64,000 bases of DNA from an uncultured Bacteroidia bacterium (GTDB lineage: Bacteria; Bacteroidota; Bacteroidia; Bacteroidales; F082). Positions 5,604 to 32,294 of this stretch are shown here, one piece after another; position 1 is the stretch's first letter; each line of letters starts with the position of its first letter. The notes under the pieces are model-generated. The model was not told where the DNA came from. It ran no database searches and saw only the letters and a list, made by a program, of their open reading frames with translations. A program made the position numbers and the translations under genes. The stretch spans positions 159,054 to 223,053 of the forward strand of contig CADBZW010000004.1 of NCBI GenBank assembly GCA_902799345.1, read 5' to 3'.

Positions 5604-6623
5604 ATGAAATCAAGGTTTTTACTTATCGCATTAGCCATCACCGTATTATTGACTGGTTGCAACGAAAAACAATCGAAAATAAAGCATTTCGACCCGACCA
5701 TTCCTGTTGGAATTGCAGTCGTTGGAAACGTTGACGACAGCACATTCCGCAACTATGTGGGCAACGTTAAGAGCGAGATGAAACTGCCTCTTTCCTTCCC
5801 TTTGGGTGGCACTCTGACAGACATTTACGTCAAAAACGGGCAACACGTAAAACGCGGTACGCTGATTGCCCGCGTTGACGAAACCTCGGCCAAAAGCCTT
5901 CACGACGCATCCCTGGCCACGCTCAACCAAGCCGAAGACGGCTACAACCGCTTGAAACAGCTGCACGAAGCCGGTGGCATCCCCGACGTGCGATGGGTGC
6001 AAATGGAAACCGACCTCGAAAAGGCCCGACAGAGCGAAATATCAACGCGCAAGCACTTGACTGAATGCACCTTGCGAGCTCCGCAAGATGGTTTTATCAG
6101 CATGGAAGAACACACTATAGGCGAAAGCATGAAGCCCTCGGAGCCCTTCTGTCACCTTATCAATATGGACAAGATGGTGGTCGAGTTTTCCGTCCCAGAA
6201 AAGGAAATCGGCATCATCCAAATCGGCGACAAGGCCGAGGCCACCTTCCCTGGCCTGGACAACAAGAAAAAGACCATTGAAATCTTTGACAAGTCGTTCG
6301 TTTCCAATCCGTTTGGTCACACCTATAACATCAAGGCGAGAATCCCCACCGACGACAAAGACATCCTCCCCGGCATGGTAGCCAAGATTCGCCTAGCTCT
6401 ATCAGAGTCATCAGGCATCGTTGTGCCTTCGTCGTGCGTCATCACGATGCCGGAAGGTGCGGATGTGTGGGTATTCCAAAATGGCTTAGCCCATCGACGC
6501 AACATCAAGGTGGGTGGTTTCGTGAAAAACGGCATCATGGTGGAAAGCGGCCTCAACAGCGGAGACACTATAATTACCGTGGGCCACCAAAAACTATACA
6601 ACGGAGCCAAAGTATCGTTCTAA
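5604..6623 (+). CDS. RND efflux periplasmic adaptor (membrane fusion protein), lipoprotein
   Basis: 339 residues with a lipoprotein signal (MKSRFLLIALAITVLLTGC; lipid Cys19), so it is anchored to the inner membrane facing the periplasm. It follows the HlyD/AcrA layout: a first beta-barrel and lipoyl half (GGTLTDIYVKNGQHVKRGTLIARVDE), a short alpha hairpin (about 90-150), the second lipoyl half (CTLRAPQDGFISMEEHTIGE), and a barrel/membrane-proximal domain ending KVSF. It connects the permease encoded next with the TolC channel two genes on; 13 bases separate it from the permease gene. Substrate unknown. Confidence 0.92.
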   Translation: MKSRFLLIALAITVLLTGCNEKQSKIKHFDPTIPVGIAVVGNVDDSTFRNYVGNVKSEMKLPLSFPLGGTLTDIYVKNGQHVKRGTLIARVDETSAKSLHDASLATLNQAEDGYNRLKQLHEAGGIPDVRWVQMETDLEKARQSEISTRKHLTECTLRAPQDGFISMEEHTIGESMKPSEPFCHLINMDKMVVEFSVPEKEIGIIQIGDKAEATFPGLDNKKKTIEIFDKSFVSNPFGHTYNIKARIPTDDKDILPGMVAKIRLALSESSGIVVPSSCVITMPEGADVWVFQNGLAHRRNIKVGGFVKNGIMVESGLNSGDTIITVGHQKLYNGAKVSF

Positions 6624-22656: not shown

Positions 22657-23487
22657 TCATTCCTTCTCCATTTCCAGCCAGCTCCGCATATCATAAGGAT
22701 AATCCGTGGTGATGTAGTCCACCCCCAATTGCAGCATCTCCTTGGCTTTTTCGGGCGCATTGACGGTCCACACGTTGACGGTCATGCCCAGGTCATGGGC
22801 TTCCTTCACCCATTCGGGATGGGCGTCGAACTTGCTCCAGTGATAGTCGATGTCGGTGATTCCCTTGTCTTTCAGTTGTTTGGGCGAGAGGTCGCCTTCG
22901 AGGTAGGCCACGGGGACGTCGGGCATGAGCTGTGACAGCATGACACAGGCGTCGAGGTCGAACGAGATAAAGAAAACTTCGTCGTGAAGCTGGTGTTTCC
23001 CTATAGCTTCGATGATTTGTCCGATCAGGTGGCAGCGTTGGACGGACGATTCCAGCGGCTTGACCTCGAAAAACAGTCGTCTCTGTTTTTTACTCTGCTG
23101 TTGGCTCTTGAGGGCTTGGCTGCATGCGGCCAGAAACGCATCCATGGTGGGCACGGGTTCGCCGTTTCTCAGGGTGAAAGCGGACAGCGCTCGCAGTGTG
23201 TCGTAAGGGGTCTCGCAAATACGGTGGCCTTGCATGATGGCGTCGTGGAAGACGATGGTGACATCGTCGGAGGTGATTTGCACGTCGAACTCGGTGCCGT
23301 CGAAGCCTTGTTTGAGGGCCAGTTGCATGGCCGCGATGCTGTTTTCGGCCGCGCTTTCAAACTGGTGGAAGCCACGATGGGCGATGATGCCCGGCTTCTT
23401 GGTCTTGGAGACCTTAAAAGTCTGTTGGGCGTTGAGGCCCATGGGGACGATGACCATTGCAATGAGGAAAAGAAGGAAACGTTTCAT
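22657..23487 (-). CDS. Glycerophosphodiester phosphodiesterase, exported
   Basis: 276 residues from the ATG at 23487: signal peptide (MKRFLLFLIAMVIVPMGLNAQ), then a TIM-barrel GDPD domain with the catalytic HR in IIAHRGFHQFESAAENSIAAM, the metal-binding EFDVQITSDDVTIVFHD, and FFEVKPLE. The end VNVWTVNAPEKAKEMLQLGVDYITTDYP is the usual GDPD tail. It hydrolyses deacylated phospholipids (glycerophosphodiesters) to glycerol-3-phosphate and an alcohol, probably in the periplasm. Its promoter lies only about 40 bases from the first CRISPR repeat and points away from it. Confidence 0.92.
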   Translation of the reverse strand: MKRFLLFLIAMVIVPMGLNAQQTFKVSKTKKPGIIAHRGFHQFESAAENSIAAMQLALKQGFDGTEFDVQITSDDVTIVFHDAIMQGHRICETPYDTLRALSAFTLRNGEPVPTMDAFLAACSQALKSQQQSKKQRRLFFEVKPLESSVQRCHLIGQIIEAIGKHQLHDEVFFISFDLDACVMLSQLMPDVPVAYLEGDLSPKQLKDKGITDIDYHWSKFDAHPEWVKEAHDLGMTVNVWTVNAPEKAKEMLQLGVDYITTDYPYDMRSWLEMEKE

Positions 23488-23517
23488 AATGGGCATAGCA
23501 AGTAGTGATTTCGGACA

Positions 23518-23525
23518 CAAAAATA
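23518..23525 (-). promoter_or_regulatory. -7 box for the GDPD gene
   Basis: TATTTTTG on the - strand, about 30 bases before the ATG at 23487 and 38 bases left of the first CRISPR repeat. This leaves little room for a conventional leader at this end of the array. Confidence 0.6.
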
Positions 23526-23563
23526 GCAATAAATAGTTATAAAAGCCCATTTCAATGAATTAT

Positions 23564-26411
23564 GTTGTGAATTGCTTGCATTTATCTTGTATCTTTGCTC
23601 TTTGAAACAACTTTCTCGGCTGTACGGTCGAAGTTCATCTTGTTGTGAATTGCTTGCATTTATCTTGTATCTTTGCTCTTTGAAACAACAATACTCACCA
23701 AAGAACACATTGTTGGCAAGTTGTGAATTGCTTGCATTTATCTTGTATCTTTGCTCTTTGAAACAACACTGACTACTTCTACGGAAGACGGGTAGCAAGT
23801 TGTGAATTGCTTGCATTTATCTTGTATCTTTGCTCTTTGAAACAACCAATGTACTACTCAATCATCTAACGCCATGGTTGTGAATTGCTTGCATTTATCT
23901 TGTATCTTTGCTCTTTGAAACAACATGCGCGAGGCACACCAGGAAGCCGCTTCAGTTGTGAATTGCTTGCATTTATCTTGTATCTTTGCTCTTTGAAACA
24001 ACGAGAAATGCGGCAAGTCCGTTGACACTGTGGTTGTGAATTGCTTGCATTTATCTTGTATCTTTGCTCTTTGAAACAACAGCGGCAATCTCCTTGGCGA
24101 TGATGGTGTCGTTGTGAATTGCTTGCATTTATCTTGTATCTTTGCTCTTTGAAACAACGCTCCAAAGTATGCTTGTACCGAAGAGGTGGTTGTGAATTGC
24201 TTGCATTTATCTTGTATCTTTGCTCTTTGAAACAACCGTCGATGCCGCGCATCATGGCCGCAAACAGTTGTGAATTGCTTGCATTTATCTTGTATCTTTG
24301 CTCTTTGAAACAACCTTGGGCGTCGGTGACGGCTTCGAGGTTCGTTGTGAATTGCTTGCATTTATCTTGTATCTTTGCTCTTTGAAACAACTTCGCCATT
24401 ATAAAACTCTATGTCAATATGGTTGTGAATTGCTTGCATTTATCTTGTATCTTTGCTCTTTGAAACAACCCGTAAGCACGAAATCCCGAACCCCAACCGT
24501 TGTGAATTGCTTGCATTTATCTTGTATCTTTGCTCTTTGAAACAACATTTTTGACCAAGACACGGCGAGCCTTTACGTTGTGAATTGCTTGCATTTATCT
24601 TGTATCTTTGCTCTTTGAAACAACTCTTCTATATGTTTGAAGCGAGCTGTCTGTGTTGTGAATTGCTTGCATTTATCTTGTATCTTTGCTCTTTGAAACA
24701 ACTTTCGCCGGTATGGCCATGCAGGAACTTTTGGTTGTGAATTGCTTGCATTTATCTTGTATCTTTGCTCTTTGAAACAACGGTTCAAGGCGAAGCCAAC
24801 ACTGCACACTGTTGTGAATTGCTTGCATTTATCTTGTATCTTTGCTCTTTGAAACAACACCATGCGTTTGACCGCCTTTCAAGTGCTTGTTGTGAATTGC
24901 TTGCATTTATCTTGTATCTTTGCTCTTTGAAACAACTGCGACATACAGTGCGACATGTTCGACAACGTTGTGAATTGCTTGCATTTATCTTGTATCTTTG
25001 CTCTTTGAAACAACGACCTCGTTGGTCGACATCGTGACCATAGTGTTGTGAATTGCTTGCATTTATCTTGTATCTTTGCTCTTTGAAACAACGTCGAAGA
25101 CTTCGACGACCTTTTGAAAGTAGTTGTGAATTGCTTGCATTTATCTTGTATCTTTGCTCTTTGAAACAACTCTTCAGGTGTAAGGCTATCAAACTCGTTT
25201 GTTGTGAATTGCTTGCATTTATCTTGTATCTTTGCTCTTTGAAACAACGTGGCCCGTTGGCTTCGCAGCCGAGCAGATGTTGTGAATTGCTTGCATTTAT
25301 CTTGTATCTTTGCTCTTTGAAACAACCCTCGTAGCCAACATAATGCTCAGCCAACTGTTGTGAATTGCTTGCATTTATCTTGTATCTTTGCTCTTTGAAA
25401 CAACTTGACGACAACGGAAACGTTATACCAAAAAGTTGTGAATTGCTTGCATTTATCTTGTATCTTTGCTCTTTGAAACAACTTGTCCGAGTTGGGTTGG
25501 AACCCAACACTTGTTGTGAATTGCTTGCATTTATCTTGTATCTTTGCTCTTTGAAACAACTATACAAGATACTAAGTTTGAAAGAAAATAGTTGTGAATT
25601 GCTTGCATTTATCTTGTATCTTTGCTCTTTGAAACAACTTATCAATTACAGCCATTGGTGGAAGTAGGTTGTGAATTGCTTGCATTTATCTTGTATCTTT
25701 GCTCTTTGAAACAACACCCGTCTCTGACATTCCTGCATGACGCAAGTTGTGAATTGCTTGCATTTATCTTGTATCTTTGCTCTTTGAAACAACCGTGCGA
25801 ACAAACATTTCTATATAGTCTGCGTTGTGAATTGCTTGCATTTATCTTGTATCTTTGCTCTTTGAAACAACCGGAATCAGGCAACGAAGCAGCATCAGCA
25901 GTTGTGAATTGCTTGCATTTATCTTGTATCTTTGCTCTTTGAAACAACTAATCATAATTAGTTTGATTTAGGAGGCCGTTGTGAATTGCTTGCATTTATC
26001 TTGTATCTTTGCTCTTTGAAACAACTCATCTTACGCGGAGAAGGCACAATCGAAGTTGTGAATTGCTTGCATTTATCTTGTATCTTTGCTCTTTGAAACA
26101 ACATATTATGACAACGGAACTTGAACAAGCCGTTGTGAATTGCTTGCATTTATCTTGTATCTTTGCTCTTTGAAACAACCGTGGCGTTGTGTCACGATTG
26201 CCACAAGGGTTGTGAATTGCTTGCATTTATCTTGTATCTTTGCTCTTTGAAACAACGATTGGCTCGTCGGGGAAATCAAGTCAAACGTTGTGAATTGCTT
26301 GCATTTATCTTGTATCTTTGCTCTTTGAAACAACTGAAACACATAATTTATCAACCGAGAAATGTTGTGAATTGCTTGCATTTATCTTGTATCTTTGCTC
26401 TTTGAAACAAC
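23564..26411 (+). CRISPR. Type II-C CRISPR array, 37 repeats of 48 bp, 36 spacers
   Basis: The repeat starts GTTGTGAATTGCTTGCATTT and ends CTCTTTGAAACAAC (48 bases). I located 37 starts, from 23564 to 26364, with no base change that I could find. Spacers are 29-31 bases, all different. The strand is set to + because the tracrRNA (32208-32294, +) carries an anti-repeat to the first 25 bases of this strand's repeat, and because bases 27-34 of each repeat read TATCTTTG, a Bacteroidota -7 box whose start point would fall just before the next spacer. The array converges on cas2. The 76 bases before the first repeat show no + strand TAnnTTTG box. A hairpin terminator follows at 26464. Open frames running through the array (MLAFILYLCSLKQ repeats) are not genes. 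Confidence 0.98.
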
Positions 26412-26463
26412 ACGATATGTGTAAAACAAAGAGCCATAGCAATTTAGAAGTTGTTTCCGAAAA

Positions 26464-26495
26464 GAAAAATCCCACCCGAAAGAGTGGGATTTTTC
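26464..26495. terminator. Bidirectional terminator between CRISPR array and cas2
   Basis: Perfect 12-bp stem (GAAAAATCCCAC with GTGGGATTTTTC), 8-base loop, with A-runs and T-runs on both sides, so it can end transcripts from the array (+) and from cas9-cas1-cas2 (-). Confidence 0.85.
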
Positions 26496-26519
26496 TTCGT
26501 TTTGACCAGTTTTGCCTAT

Positions 26520-27766
<1,247 letters not shown>

Positions 27767-27854: not shown

Positions 27855-30800
27855 TTAATACTCTCCAATAGAAACAATTTGACCAATATGATTAATTCGA
27901 ACTTTTACAATTCCACGAAGCCCTTCAGCATTTCTAACCCTTTTCCAAGTGATATCCCTTAAAAAAGTATTTTCGTCCACAATTGTTTCAAGATGATGCC
28001 TAAAATAATAGTCTTTTGTCGCCATTTTCTGAACCCTAAACAAATTAGGGCTAATCAAAGCATAATTCTCGGGATTTTTATACCAAACCTCATCATAGTA
28101 CAAAGGATTGAAAACTAAATTGCCTTGCTCGTCATAACGAGGAAACACGAAATACTCATTTTGCTTCATGGTAAACATGAATCGCCAGCCTTCCTCTTTC
28201 TTGTATTCCTTGTCGACAATTGGGAAACCTTGTATAGCTCGCGATGTTGCTTCATAGAACGACACGATTACTTCATCCAACTCATATTGCGGTTCGCCCT
28301 TGCCGTCCAACAATTGCTGTCCATTCTTATCCAATTTAGGCTTACGGTAAATAGCCACATGATGGTTATTGCCCGTATTCACAAAGTCAACGGGTTGAGT
28401 TTTTCCTTTTTCATCCAAAATCAATTGACCGTCTTTGTCGCGTTTGTCGTGAAGTGATTCAGCATTACTAATGCCCGTAATAGTAACCCGCTTTATGGCA
28501 ATACCCTTTTCTTTATTGAGCCAAATGGGATTGTCATCCAGATTGGAGAATGCTTTCTTAGCATCGCCTCCAAAAGTATCCAAACGCTCTTGAAGAATTT
28601 GACGGGTATGAGCATCGACTACTTTTTCAACCTTCAAATCAGGTGTTATTTCTTTCCTAATAGTATAGATAGTTTCAAAAGTCACAGTCTTAATCTTCTC
28701 GGGAACTTGAATCGTATGCAAATCATTCAACCAGACCGGATTCTTCTCCAATGAATTTTTCCCTGTAAAAGCCTTTTTAGCATCACCATCACACTGCTGC
28801 AAACGGGCAAGAAGTGCTTCACGATACCGCTTATTTGTTACGGTATTGATCTTTTCGACATTAAAAGAAGCATTCACCTTTTCTTCTTTGGTAACATATC
28901 TCTTGCAACTACCGAAAACAGTTTCCAAATGCAACTGCCCTCGAGGTGTAAGTTGTATCTTCTTGTTTCTTCCATTCTTGGTTTTGGACACGTTCACGTT
29001 TTGTGTAACCACCTTGTTTTTCGCTTTAATTGATACCAAGATAGCTTCCAGTTGCCGTTTCGCCTCAGCCCTAAACTCTTCCAAAGGCATAGGAGCATTG
29101 AATCGAAGCTTACCGTGACTATCACGATGCAATTCTTTTCTTTCAATAGCATACACCGCAGCTGAACGCTGGTCTTTGTCAAGCAAAGAAAGTTCAACCA
29201 TATCCAAATCAATATAATCATCTACACCTTTTTGAACCCTTGCATTCAAATTGTTCAAATATTGAATGAAACTACGTTTTGTAAAGGCAATCGTCAAGGC
29301 ATCCATGGCATGATGACGATGGTCATTACGCTTGGTCCAATCCTTGATTCGGCGAATACGCTGTCCATCACGGCCTTCGATGATTTCTGTAAGTCCTAAT
29401 TGGTTGTATTTATCCCAATTAAGCTCCTGCATCACATCAACCAGTTGCCAATCCTCACGTAAACGATCGGTAATGCTACCTGTGGTCGGAACAACAAAAC
29501 GCACTATCTCCTCCAATATCTCACGCGCTTTCTTGGCAATGTATTGTGAATCACGCAAGTCTCGATTAATAAAACCACTTGGAATATCAGCCTCTTTCAT
29601 TAAGAGTTTATCTCTTTTGGTCTTGCTTATAACCTTTTTGTTATATAAGTTCTCAATCCTATTAACGTACTCTTCTGCGCCTTGTGCTCCGTATTTTTCA
29701 TTCACAAAATCCATTGCCGTGGCATTGCCTTTGTCGAGATTAACCTGACGAACTTCGAGCGTCTTGTTTGAAAACGAATCGTCAAACAACTTAGCTTGAG
29801 GGATGATATGTTCAATGTCAAATTCCTTACTGAACAACTTCTCACGAGGAATGTAGGTATTGGAATACAATGTCTTATATCCATTCATTTCAAGTTCCTC
29901 ATAGAGCTTATACCTTATGATGTCATTGCGGCTAACGTGTTCCAAATTGAAAGGTTCTCCTTGCAATACTTTTACATACCCTTCGTGCAGCCTAGTTGTT
30001 TCATTGATTGACTTAGTCATTTCCTCGCGTTCCTTGGCCGACTTTTTCAATTCACGAGCTAATTCGATACGTATTTCATCAGGTTTTCCATATTCATCAA
30101 TGATAGCGTTCACCACATTTACCATCTGGTTCAAAATCTTCTCCACCACTGGATTTCGCAAGCTATTACGAGGCAATAAATCCAATTTGTCTTTCAACAC
30201 TTTGTTTTCAATCTCCTCTTTAGTGAACGAGTTCTTCGAATGTCGATAACCAGCATATTCACAGGCTACACTATATTCAAGTCCATCTTTCAAATGGGGA
30301 AGAATCTTACGGATGGCTTTACTACTTAAGTTGCCATAATCATCCGGGAAAACCACTCCTGCCAAAATTGTAGCAAAATCTTTGTCAAAGCCAAACTGGT
30401 CATGCAATTTTTGGATGAGGTTTGCATTACCCAACTCCGACTTGTCGCCCTCATACGAGTACAACAAATGCCATAATTTGAACATAGGCTGCTGTTCCAA
30501 GGCATGGCCTTCAAGACTTGAATCAAAATACAATATTTCTGTATTGATTCCCAATCCAGCAAACACCTCAACGACACTCTCAATAATCTTACTCGATGAC
30601 ATTTTTGTAAAATCCAGGTCATCATGACCACTCATTTCGATGATGGTCTTATAAGCTTCCAGCAACTCTGCTTGTGTTTGATTGCCTTCCAAGTCTTTAT
30701 AATTAAGGTCGTAATCTTTTTGATTGCCAAATAACAATTTCAGTGCTTCTGCCTTAGAAATTTTCTCGCGATAATTGAGTTCTGCAAATAGTTTTTCCTT

Positions 30801-32114
30801 CTCTTCTTGGAACAAGAAACGTTTTGGCGTTGTTTTTCCCCACACCTGCATGTTGTTCAAAACCTGCCAAATCTTGAATTCTTGGAACAAGGGTGAAGAT
30901 TTAGGGCACACGCGCAAACCTATTGTCTTGGTCTTCTTTTTGCCATCAATCTCCACTTCAATTTGACGGCTCTCAAACTCACAAAAAGAGATTAAACCTT
31001 TTTGGGATTTAAGTGGCCTCTGATAAAAAATGACGATGTCACGTATTTCTTTCTTCAGTTCAGGATTCAATTCCTTATGAAATTTGGCTTGTGTTTTCCA
31101 AATTGTCTCAAACTCATTAAGATAATCTTGCCGATAGAACACTTGGTTCTTCAAACTATAATTTGGGTTCTTCTCCAGCTGTGCCATTTGATATTGGCCA
31201 ATAGTTTGATGATTGAAATACAATGCTTTACTTCTATCGCTAATGTCGCCAAGATAACCGCTGGCATTGCTAATTTGACCATTGACTTCTTGAAGTACAA
31301 CCATCAATTCTTCCAAACCCAATTTTTGCGTAAGCGCATCAACCCGCCATTGGTAGTTTTCTATCTTCAAATCTTGACCTTTTGTAGAACGTTTTACCCC
31401 TTCTATTTTGAACAATCCAATGCAAAGAGACCAAGTCTGTTTCTTATTCTTCCCAATCAATTCATTAAACAATTTGTCCGTGAGCAATGTCGGATAATAT
31501 TGTTTTTGACTCGCCCAAATTCTCTCAAACTCGTTTTGCAAATCAGAACGATAAAACTCAGGCAAATAACGTTTACCACTTTTTAGCAATTGCAATGAAA
31601 GCTGTCCTGGCGTTAGGTTTTCTTCATACAACTTTTTGGCTATCTCCATTCCATCAATTAGTTGTCCTTCTTCTGTAGACTTTGCTTTGCGGCTGCTTTT
31701 GTATCCTCTTTTCTTATTAATCATCAATAATACTCGAGCAAATTCTTCCAAGGAAATCTCTTTGGAAGCAGCTTTAGCCCTCAAACGATAGATTTCAAAA
31801 GTGGTTTTGTTTCCATTTTCCGACAACACAGTCTCATCATCAATAAAACCACTCTCTTTTAAAACTTCTATCAAATTCTCACGACGCAATTTGTACCTTT
31901 GAAGATTTCGTCGCATACTGCGTTTTAATGTGCGAGTTGCATTAGTAGTAATTGGTTTTCCTTTCTCAAAATTGGTTTGCTCATCTACCGTCAAGGGGTT
32001 AACCCTAACTCCCAATTTTATGATTGATGATTTTTCGGCTTCACTTTCAGCCTCATTCACCACAGCCCAGCCAATGCTGTTGGTGCCTAAGTCAAGTCCT
32101 AGTATTTTCTTCAT
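27855..32114 (-). CDS. cas9: Cas9 RNA-guided endonuclease, type II-C
   Basis: 1419 residues. RuvC-I is KKILGLDLGTNSIGWAVV (Asp8). An arginine-rich bridge helix follows (TRTLKRSMRRNLQRYKLRRENL). RuvC-II is IRIELARELKKS (Glu684). HNH is EFDIEHIIPQAKLFDDS (His769). RuvC-III is HHAMDALTIAFTKRS (Asp938). All catalytic residues are present, so both strands should be cut. No csn2 or cas4 is nearby, making the operon cas9-cas1-cas2 (II-C). The protein is longer than Neisseria or Campylobacter II-C Cas9, the extra length lying in the recognition lobe and a long C-terminal PAM-interacting part. The likely promoter is at 32146-32153, 32 bases before the ATG. Confidence 0.98.
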   Translation of the reverse strand: MKKILGLDLGTNSIGWAVVNEAESEAEKSSIIKLGVRVNPLTVDEQTNFEKGKPITTNATRTLKRSMRRNLQRYKLRRENLIEVLKESGFIDDETVLSENGNKTTFEIYRLRAKAASKEISLEEFARVLLMINKKRGYKSSRKAKSTEEGQLIDGMEIAKKLYEENLTPGQLSLQLLKSGKRYLPEFYRSDLQNEFERIWASQKQYYPTLLTDKLFNELIGKNKKQTWSLCIGLFKIEGVKRSTKGQDLKIENYQWRVDALTQKLGLEELMVVLQEVNGQISNASGYLGDISDRSKALYFNHQTIGQYQMAQLEKNPNYSLKNQVFYRQDYLNEFETIWKTQAKFHKELNPELKKEIRDIVIFYQRPLKSQKGLISFCEFESRQIEVEIDGKKKTKTIGLRVCPKSSPLFQEFKIWQVLNNMQVWGKTTPKRFLFQEEKEKLFAELNYREKISKAEALKLLFGNQKDYDLNYKDLEGNQTQAELLEAYKTIIEMSGHDDLDFTKMSSSKIIESVVEVFAGLGINTEILYFDSSLEGHALEQQPMFKLWHLLYSYEGDKSELGNANLIQKLHDQFGFDKDFATILAGVVFPDDYGNLSSKAIRKILPHLKDGLEYSVACEYAGYRHSKNSFTKEEIENKVLKDKLDLLPRNSLRNPVVEKILNQMVNVVNAIIDEYGKPDEIRIELARELKKSAKEREEMTKSINETTRLHEGYVKVLQGEPFNLEHVSRNDIIRYKLYEELEMNGYKTLYSNTYIPREKLFSKEFDIEHIIPQAKLFDDSFSNKTLEVRQVNLDKGNATAMDFVNEKYGAQGAEEYVNRIENLYNKKVISKTKRDKLLMKEADIPSGFINRDLRDSQYIAKKAREILEEIVRFVVPTTGSITDRLREDWQLVDVMQELNWDKYNQLGLTEIIEGRDGQRIRRIKDWTKRNDHRHHAMDALTIAFTKRSFIQYLNNLNARVQKGVDDYIDLDMVELSLLDKDQRSAAVYAIERKELHRDSHGKLRFNAPMPLEEFRAEAKRQLEAILVSIKAKNKVVTQNVNVSKTKNGRNKKIQLTPRGQLHLETVFGSCKRYVTKEEKVNASFNVEKINTVTNKRYREALLARLQQCDGDAKKAFTGKNSLEKNPVWLNDLHTIQVPEKIKTVTFETIYTIRKEITPDLKVEKVVDAHTRQILQERLDTFGGDAKKAFSNLDDNPIWLNKEKGIAIKRVTITGISNAESLHDKRDKDGQLILDEKGKTQPVDFVNTGNNHHVAIYRKPKLDKNGQQLLDGKGEPQYELDEVIVSFYEATSRAIQGFPIVDKEYKKEEGWRFMFTMKQNEYFVFPRYDEQGNLVFNPLYYDEVWYKNPENYALISPNLFRVQKMATKDYYFRHHLETIVDENTFLRDITWKRVRNAEGLRGIVKVRINHIGQIVSIGEY

Positions 32115-32145: not shown

Positions 32146-32153
32146 CAAAATTA
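32146..32153 (-). promoter_or_regulatory. -7 box for the cas operon
   Basis: TAATTTTG on the - strand, 32 bases upstream of the cas9 ATG. It lies 42 bases from, and diverges from, the tracrRNA -7 box. Confidence 0.65.
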
Positions 32154-32194: not shown

Positions 32195-32202
32195 TATTTT
32201 TG
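32195..32202 (+). promoter_or_regulatory. -7 box for tracrRNA
   Basis: TATTTTTG on the + strand. The start point expected about 6-8 bases later falls just before the anti-repeat. Confidence 0.7.
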
Positions 32203-32207
32203 CAGCA

Positions 32208-32294
32208 CAAGATATGCAGCAATTCACAATAAGGATTATTCCGTTGTGAAAACATCAAGTTCGGGGCGATTTCGGTCGCCTCGTCTTTTTTTGC
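32208..32294 (+). ncRNA. tracrRNA
   Basis: Begins with an anti-repeat at about 32208-32230 (CAAGATATGCAGCAATTCAC...). Its last 11 bases (GCAATTCACAA) pair without a break with repeat bases 2-12, then 11 more pairs form with repeat bases 13-26 around bulges (22 pairs in all). A nexus-like stretch (AAGGATTATTCC, 32231-32242) follows, then a hairpin GGCGA/TCGCC (32265-32280) and a T-run (32286-32292) acting as terminator. It guides crRNA maturation and Cas9 loading. It is transcribed divergently from cas9 and in the same direction as the array. The ends are predicted from sequence only. Confidence 0.88.
32265..32292 (+). terminator. Rho-independent terminator of tracrRNA
   Basis: Five-pair stem GGCGA/TCGCC with a six-base loop; after TCG, seven T follow. 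It also forms the 3' hairpin of the mature tracrRNA. Confidence 0.75.

Follow-up and report, generated by a model that had tools for sequence, protein, structure and literature searches.

In an uncultured Bacteroidia bacterium (Bacteroidales, F082), each of the 37 repeats of a CRISPR array very probably contains its own promoter for the next guide RNA, written in the dialect of the phylum, as judged from comparison of sequences. The array lies in a stretch of 64,000 nucleotides of contig CADBZW010000004.1 (hereafter the window). We have considerable confidence in our reading as a whole, namely that of a II-C repeat which would do two jobs, as a handle for the tracrRNA and as a Bacteroidota promoter whose box was probably replaced once.

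In the mechanism that we propose, the 5' part of the repeat (about positions 1–28) would be the tracrRNA-pairing handle for the crRNA of the preceding spacer, and the 3' part, beginning at position 27, would act as a promoter of Bacteroidota type, read with the primary sigma factor, for the crRNA of the following spacer. With a start predicted near repeat positions 39–42, each RNA would comprise the last 7–10 bases of a repeat and the spacer and run into the next repeat; it would then pair with the tracrRNA and be trimmed. The sigma70 −10 box would have been swapped for that of the host in what was probably a single event, close to the base of one Cas9 clade of Bacteroidota.

Results

A −7 box in every repeat of the array

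The array (positions 23564 to 26411, + strand) is made of 37 identical 48-nt repeats and 36 spacers of 29–31 nt, and no further copy of the repeat was found when up to 8 substitutions were allowed. The repeat reads GTTGTGAATTGCTTGCATTTATCTTGTATCTTTGCTCTTTGAAACAAC and has TATCTTTG, a match to TAnnTTTG, at its positions 27–34; as the original prediction had it, the match is exact in 37/37 copies. In the first repeat this box occupies 23590 to 23597 and in the last one 26390 to 26397 (both + strand); the latter would face the leader, the downstream spacer being absent. Mapped starts of Flavobacterium psychrophilum have the box at −12 to −5 (according to excerpts of PMC9723704), and with this spacing the promoter of the first repeat would start at 23602 to 23605 (+ strand, repeat positions 39–42). 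Every repeat would present a putative promoter element of host type to the next spacer. A Neisseria-type, sigma70-like box was not found at the 3' end of the repeat, which ends in GAAACAAC, and a sigma70 scan of positions 23400–26620 gave 6 sites against 6.8 in shuffles.

Exact TAnnTTTG occurs 39 times on the + strand inside the array (37 in repeats and 2 in spacers) and 23 times on the + strand of the window outside it; the − strand has 25 in the whole window and 0 inside the array. The 76 bases before the array had been said to be free of the box, which is right, because there is no exact + strand TAnnTTTG between 22374 and the array, that is, over 1.1 kb upstream. The − strand of this leader-distal flank (23488 to 23563) has one box, at 23518–23525, facing the neighbouring gdpd gene. 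The gdpd box falls within the longest ORF (22657–23550), and the start of gdpd is more likely an inner ATG, with its first base at 23487, than the start of that ORF.

On the − strand follow cas2 (TIGR01573, 26520 to 26903), a type II cas1 (TIGR03639, 26852 to 27766) and cas9 (TIGR01865, 1419 aa, 27855 to 32114), all over the cut-off. Together with a tracrRNA predicted near cas9 from its anti-repeat, this set of genes is as in type II-C CRISPR-Cas. A csn2 search gave no match in the genome and none in the control genomes either. The original proposal that RNase III processing would become dispensable finds no support here; an RNase III gene is present in the genome, and the predicted tracrRNA pairs with repeat positions 1–28 (see below).

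TAnnTTTG as a probable promoter signal in this genome

The use of the motif by the host was studied in a 389-kb sample of its genome (the window plus 17 stretches). The density of TAnnTTTG was 3.46 per kb in 162 upstream regions as compared with 0.378 per kb over the 17 stretches, and its enrichment in upstream regions reached 7.8-fold in this genome, 3.2- and 2.2-fold in the pooled upstream regions of other Bacteroidota loci and 1.4-fold, near expectation, in loci of other phyla (best 80 of 540). Within the upstream regions of the genome 90 boxes were on the forward strand and 49 on the other one, part of these 49 presumably being promoters of divergent genes; the strand bias in the pooled regions of other Bacteroidota was slight (143 vs 135 and 106 vs 98). 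The window ORFs at 5604, 11352, 13870, 16161, 40752, 47044, 52580 and 59244 are preceded by the same box, as are cas9 (TAATTTTG, 32146 to 32153, − strand), the predicted tracrRNA, a TPP riboswitch and a tRNA pair.

Upstream boxes are flanked mostly by T, T, C or T, G before and by C after (68 percent), and the repeat box by C, T, T, G before and C after. Its flank score exceeds that of 46/72 boxes upstream of genes in the same genome and of 165/186 other TAnnTTTG sites in the 17 stretches; judged by these scores, the repeat box is probably more than a chance match. Gaps of 19–22 nt between a TTG and the box are commoner in the upstream regions than most other distances (n = 78, with 11 at a gap of 22, 7 at 19 and 7 at 32). 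The TTG at repeat positions 2–4 stands at a gap of 22 from the box, which fits the spacing of the host −33 TTG. By its TAnnTTTG −7 box the repeat thus qualifies as a candidate promoter for the Bacteroidota primary sigma factor.

The box in repeats of Bacteroidota and of other phyla

Related systems were collected by Cas9 searches (TIGR01865) in overlapping sets of genomes from the phylum (395 genomes, 65 positive including our own, E up to 1e-20), the class (395 genomes, 91 positive at 1e-40) and the order (393 genomes, 149 positive at 1e-40). The first set of 66 loci was made up of the window and 65 loci taken from the 64 positive genomes of the phylum other than our own, the second of 80 loci hand-picked from the class and order matches for assembled length and spread, and the third of the best 80 of 540 loci from named genomes of many phyla. 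Arrays were detected in 56/66 loci of the first set, 67/80 of the second and 53/80 of the third (best 80 of 540). Two Bacteroidota loci (L213 and L236) as well as non-arrays or fragments in L125, L157 and L170 were dropped before counting. The repeats counted were 131 from Bacteroidota (87 long, meaning 44–49 nt, and 44 short) and 41 from other phyla (best 80 of 540), the latter 36–37 nt long, all from loci defined by Cas9 plus an array, whatever the subtype (II-A, B or C). Repeats of other phyla were oriented by the array converging on cas9, with no use of the box, and those of Bacteroidota by a 5' consensus. Dereplication was done at 85 percent.

After dereplication, exact TAnnTTTG was present in 31/62 long Bacteroidota repeats in forward orientation and 1/62 in reverse complement, as compared with a mean of 4.19 and a maximum of 11 in 300 dinucleotide shuffles. 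The corresponding number for other phyla was 0/34 (from the best 80 of 540 loci; Fisher 3.6e-8). Enrichment over shuffled repeats of a Bacteroidota −7 box facing the next spacer had been set as a check, together with a comparison of this phylum with others, and for the long Cas9-array repeats the counts are in favour on both points. Without dereplication the box was found in 48/87 long, 5/44 short and 0/41 other-phyla repeats (best 80 of 540). The idea of a phylum-wide box stood for the window's order, where 38/47 long repeats have it, but not for the rest of the phylum (10/40 long repeats) or for the 36-nt Bacteroidota repeats (3/25, dereplicated).

Among the exact boxes of long repeats, 28/31 lie 18–22 nt past the TTG at positions 2–4. 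In the 56/62 long repeats that could be anchored on the box, its fixed letters carry 1.15–2.0 bits, a figure inflated by the anchoring itself, and the next seven bases 0.01–0.26 bits. The exact box is missing from 31/62 long repeats, and 26 of these have, at some place in their sequence, a version of it with a single letter changed; with one mismatch allowed, 57/62 long repeats match, and the shuffles do nearly as well (mean 42.1, maximum 53). Near variants outside the window's order include TAnnTTAG, TAnnTTCG and TTnnTTTG, and the first two cannot be called promoters, because they are not enriched in the pooled upstream regions.

Several short repeats deserve mention. Spacer bases completing a TG after the 36-nt Bacteroidota repeats showed no bias (+1, p 0.18; +2, p 0.13). 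The related 36-nt repeats of L074, L078 and L079 (GTTGCGGATTGG...GCCGACAAC) have TAnnTTTG at position 21, perhaps a third layout of a repeat promoter. L042, L055, L110, L114 and L165 have 36-nt repeats starting with GTTGTGGTTTGATTAAAGATTAG in an array that is co-directional with cas9 instead of converging on it; such loci include named Flavobacterium, Polaribacter and Flavobacteriaceae records.

Polarity of the array and the upstream-promoter explanation

The flank between the last repeat and cas2 (26412 to 26519, + strand) is alike in two loci of the same genus (scores of 93 and 45, for a shuffled maximum of 22), whereas the scores of the left flank with the same two loci, 14 and 16, stay below that maximum. 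The leader is accordingly on the cas2 side, and not in the left 76 nt, where the original prediction had looked for a box. No clear likeness was seen with four more distant loci (right flank 14–24, left flank 15–17). The last repeats, at the cas2 end, have no mismatch in any of the 78 long arrays (of 86) that were counted, and the first ones, at the far end, are often mismatched and decayed on their 5' side. In Riemerella, spacers are added at the cas2 end (excerpts of PMC6008519). From the flank scores, the unmutated cas2-end repeats and spacer addition in Riemerella, it follows that the array is oriented such that transcription would proceed from the older spacers to the newer ones and toward the leader, the direction described for II-C generally (excerpts of PMC12080349). 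A terminator-like two-way hairpin (AAAAATCCCAC/GTGGGATTTTT, about 26465–26494), noted by eye and unlisted by the scan, lies between the array end and cas2 and would be fit to stop transcription from both sides.

A single long precursor made from an upstream promoter, the box being in the repeat by chance or by inheritance, appears improbable to us. Some room is left for it because host promoters need not match TAnnTTTG exactly, several variants of the −7 motif being reported (excerpts of PMC9723704), and the 47-bp repeats of Riemerella are described as having no promoters, one being predicted in the cas2-side flank (in the available part of PMC5006608). That flank, however, comes after the array when read in the direction of the crRNAs, and the 1.1 kb upstream of the array lack an exact + strand box. 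Moreover, the box of long repeats is enriched in the forward orientation and not in the reverse one, and is absent from the sampled other phyla (best 80 of 540 loci).

Decay of the first repeats

The 5' decay of first repeats has already been published for II-C in general (excerpts of PMC12080349). In 41/74 long arrays the first intact repeat is preceded, at the distance of one spacer, by a remnant, and 1 was found in control windows. The box could be scored in 35 of these truncated first repeats; its start was kept in 28 and cut in 7, one of which (L018) has an indel past an intact box, whereas uniform breakpoints would be expected to cut 14–15 (P 0.003–0.010). In 66 first copies, changes affected 260/1565 positions before the box, 1/396 of its fixed letters and 16/983 positions after it (fixed letters against after-box, p 0.054). 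A looser acceptance of copies gave 360/1542, 5/390 and 17/968, respectively (p 0.64). The bases past the box are thus conserved to about the same degree as its own letters; some of the extra copies taken under this rule look like chance matches, and it is with the rule dropped that 7/35 boxes are cut. The TTG 18–22 nt before the box may be conserved for pairing only, because just 9/32 decayed first repeats retain it. Loss of the 5' half in 35/73 first repeats, against loss of the 3' half in 0, was rejected as evidence: a copy that was bad in both halves did not pass the acceptance rule, and the zero is partly a product of this. The same 5' decay is seen in 12/29 first copies from other phyla (best 80 of 540 loci).

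The way in which first repeats survive agrees with selection on a putative promoter half, although the bases after the box are kept as well and the TTG mostly is not. An alternative role of the conserved 3' part would be in spacer integration, through recognition by Cas1-Cas2, and we regard this as very unlikely. It is true that the last repeats, those copied at integration, show no mutation in any of the 78 arrays counted and that the ends of repeats seem conserved, but the first repeats, which integration does not use, keep their 3' part while losing the 5' one, and integration leaves unexplained that the box follows the host promoter consensus by phylum.

The tracrRNA and the limits of pairing

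The predicted tracrRNA (32207 to 32292, + strand; ends set by eye) has its anti-repeat from 32207 and a terminator-like hairpin with a T run at about 32286–32292, and is preceded by a −7 box, TATTTTTG, at 32195 to 32202 (+ strand). If this box is at −12 to −5, the RNA would start at 32207, the first base complementary to the repeat. No tracrRNA family came up in the Rfam gathering scan, whose entries were two tRNAs and the TPP riboswitch. The computed duplex between tracrRNA and repeat covers repeat positions 1–28 (−30.0 kcal/mol) and ends short of TTTG; this part of the box has no partner here, because the predicted tracrRNA starts where pairing starts. In L180, of the same genus, the last 28 bases of the repeat are identical to those of the window repeat and positions 15 and 18–20 differ; its anti-repeat also differs from that of the window.

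Using an anti-repeat followed by TAA[AG]G as the criterion, tracrRNA genes were found in 82/87 long loci, 53 of these 82 having an exact box that ends 2–11 nt, mostly 5–6 nt, before the anti-repeat. Repeat and tracrRNA boxes co-vary if the tree is ignored (40/6/13/23, Fisher 2e-6); we do not claim this co-variation, because it is not significant on independent pairs of the tree (median p 0.125). That the box region is conserved because it belongs to the crRNA:tracrRNA duplex or to a site for RNase III, and not as a promoter, is hardly credible: pairing does reach the first two box letters in the window locus, and box columns 0–2 are opposite complementary DNA in 51–74 percent of the scored long loci, but TTTG is partnerless here, the three T columns match at 21–31 percent (two of them) and 49 percent (one), and the last column, G, which matches at 83 percent, lies by our reading of the offsets opposite the promoter DNA of the tracrRNA gene itself.

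Evolution of the repeat box

A Cas9 tree (FastTree, unrooted, with long-branch warnings) was built from 151 systems, those among the 172 whose Cas9 frame was usable. On this tree 82/84 long-repeat systems share a single group of Bacteroidota, with a support of 99 and 85 rows, whose remaining three rows (L026, L035 and L040) have 36-nt repeats with a near-box at position 23 or 24, and the 30 other-phyla rows (from the best 80 of 540 loci) are on one side of a branch with support 98. The long-repeat state takes five changes on the tree. In L051 and L059 the repeats are long, but Cas9 groups with that of short-repeat systems; an exchange of array and cas9, or a separate lengthening, is possible in these cases.

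Convergent evolution with the Neisseria strategy, as originally put forward, is rejected as the simplest reading. Because 30/34 other-phyla repeats (best 80 of 540 loci) have at their 3' end a TAnAnT that resembles a sigma70 −10 box, and nearly all long-repeat systems belong to a single Cas9 group, one old strategy with a rewritten box is simpler; it looks like one inherited promoter-in-repeat strategy, the box of which was rewritten for the host.

Discussion

In the II-C system of Neisseria meningitidis the array and the cas genes are convergent, as here, and Zhang et al. in 2013 are said to have located an extended −10 box in the terminal nine bases of its repeat, with starts in the spacer. 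The box described here differs, being a TAnnTTTG at positions 27–34 of a 48-nt repeat, with a start that is predicted to lie within the repeat. For Neisseria and Campylobacter, promoters carried by the repeats are known (excerpts of PMC12080349 and PMC7038990), and N. meningitidis likewise has a promoter per repeat and short crRNAs from these internal promoters (excerpts of PMC5006608 and PMC7038990). In the same phylum as our bacterium, the II-C arrays of Flavobacterium columnare and F. psychrophilum are transcribed toward the leader, and repeat-borne promoters have been proposed for them on the basis of a TTG 33 or 35 bp before the spacer, unlike the TAnnTTTG considered here. RNA-seq reads fall inside these arrays (eight in F. 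columnare), and TAnnTTTG is named, in the parts available of both papers, only for the F. psychrophilum cas9 gene (PMC8092290, PMC10309648). We found no statement on TAnnTTTG inside CRISPR repeats in the literature searched, the coverage of which leaves out most subscription journals and includes some papers as excerpts.

Also close are the II-C systems of Riemerella anatipestifer and Prevotella intermedia, with 47-bp repeats, cas9, cas1 and cas2 (excerpts of PMC5006608, PMC6008519 and PMC5608340). The P. intermedia repeat, as given in PMC5608340, has TATCTTTG at position 24. The available part of the Riemerella paper (PMC5006608) reports no promoter in the repeats, unlike our reading, and that of the P. 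intermedia paper (PMC5608340) raises the possibility that spacers located behind a transposase gene in the array are inactivated by this gene.

A broader proposal can be made only tentatively, and we would not yet lean on it: the II-C repeat may be a two-part element whose promoter half has been rewritten for the Bacteroidota sigma factor. The 10–12 extra bases of the long repeats of the phylum would house the whole −7 box and the start site upstream of the spacer, and crRNAs would thereby have full-length spacers and a 5' repeat remnant, while the transfer of arrays between phyla would be limited by promoter dialect. Our main reading, a promoter in each repeat, would provide a testable reason for the long, 46–48 nt repeats in the Cas9 arrays of many Bacteroidota. 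It would also revise two published readings, that of promoterless repeats in Riemerella and that of a transposase inactivating the distal spacers of P. intermedia. Finally, it predicts that such arrays can do without a promoter in the leader, and that they may not function in a host whose sigma70 is of the ordinary kind.
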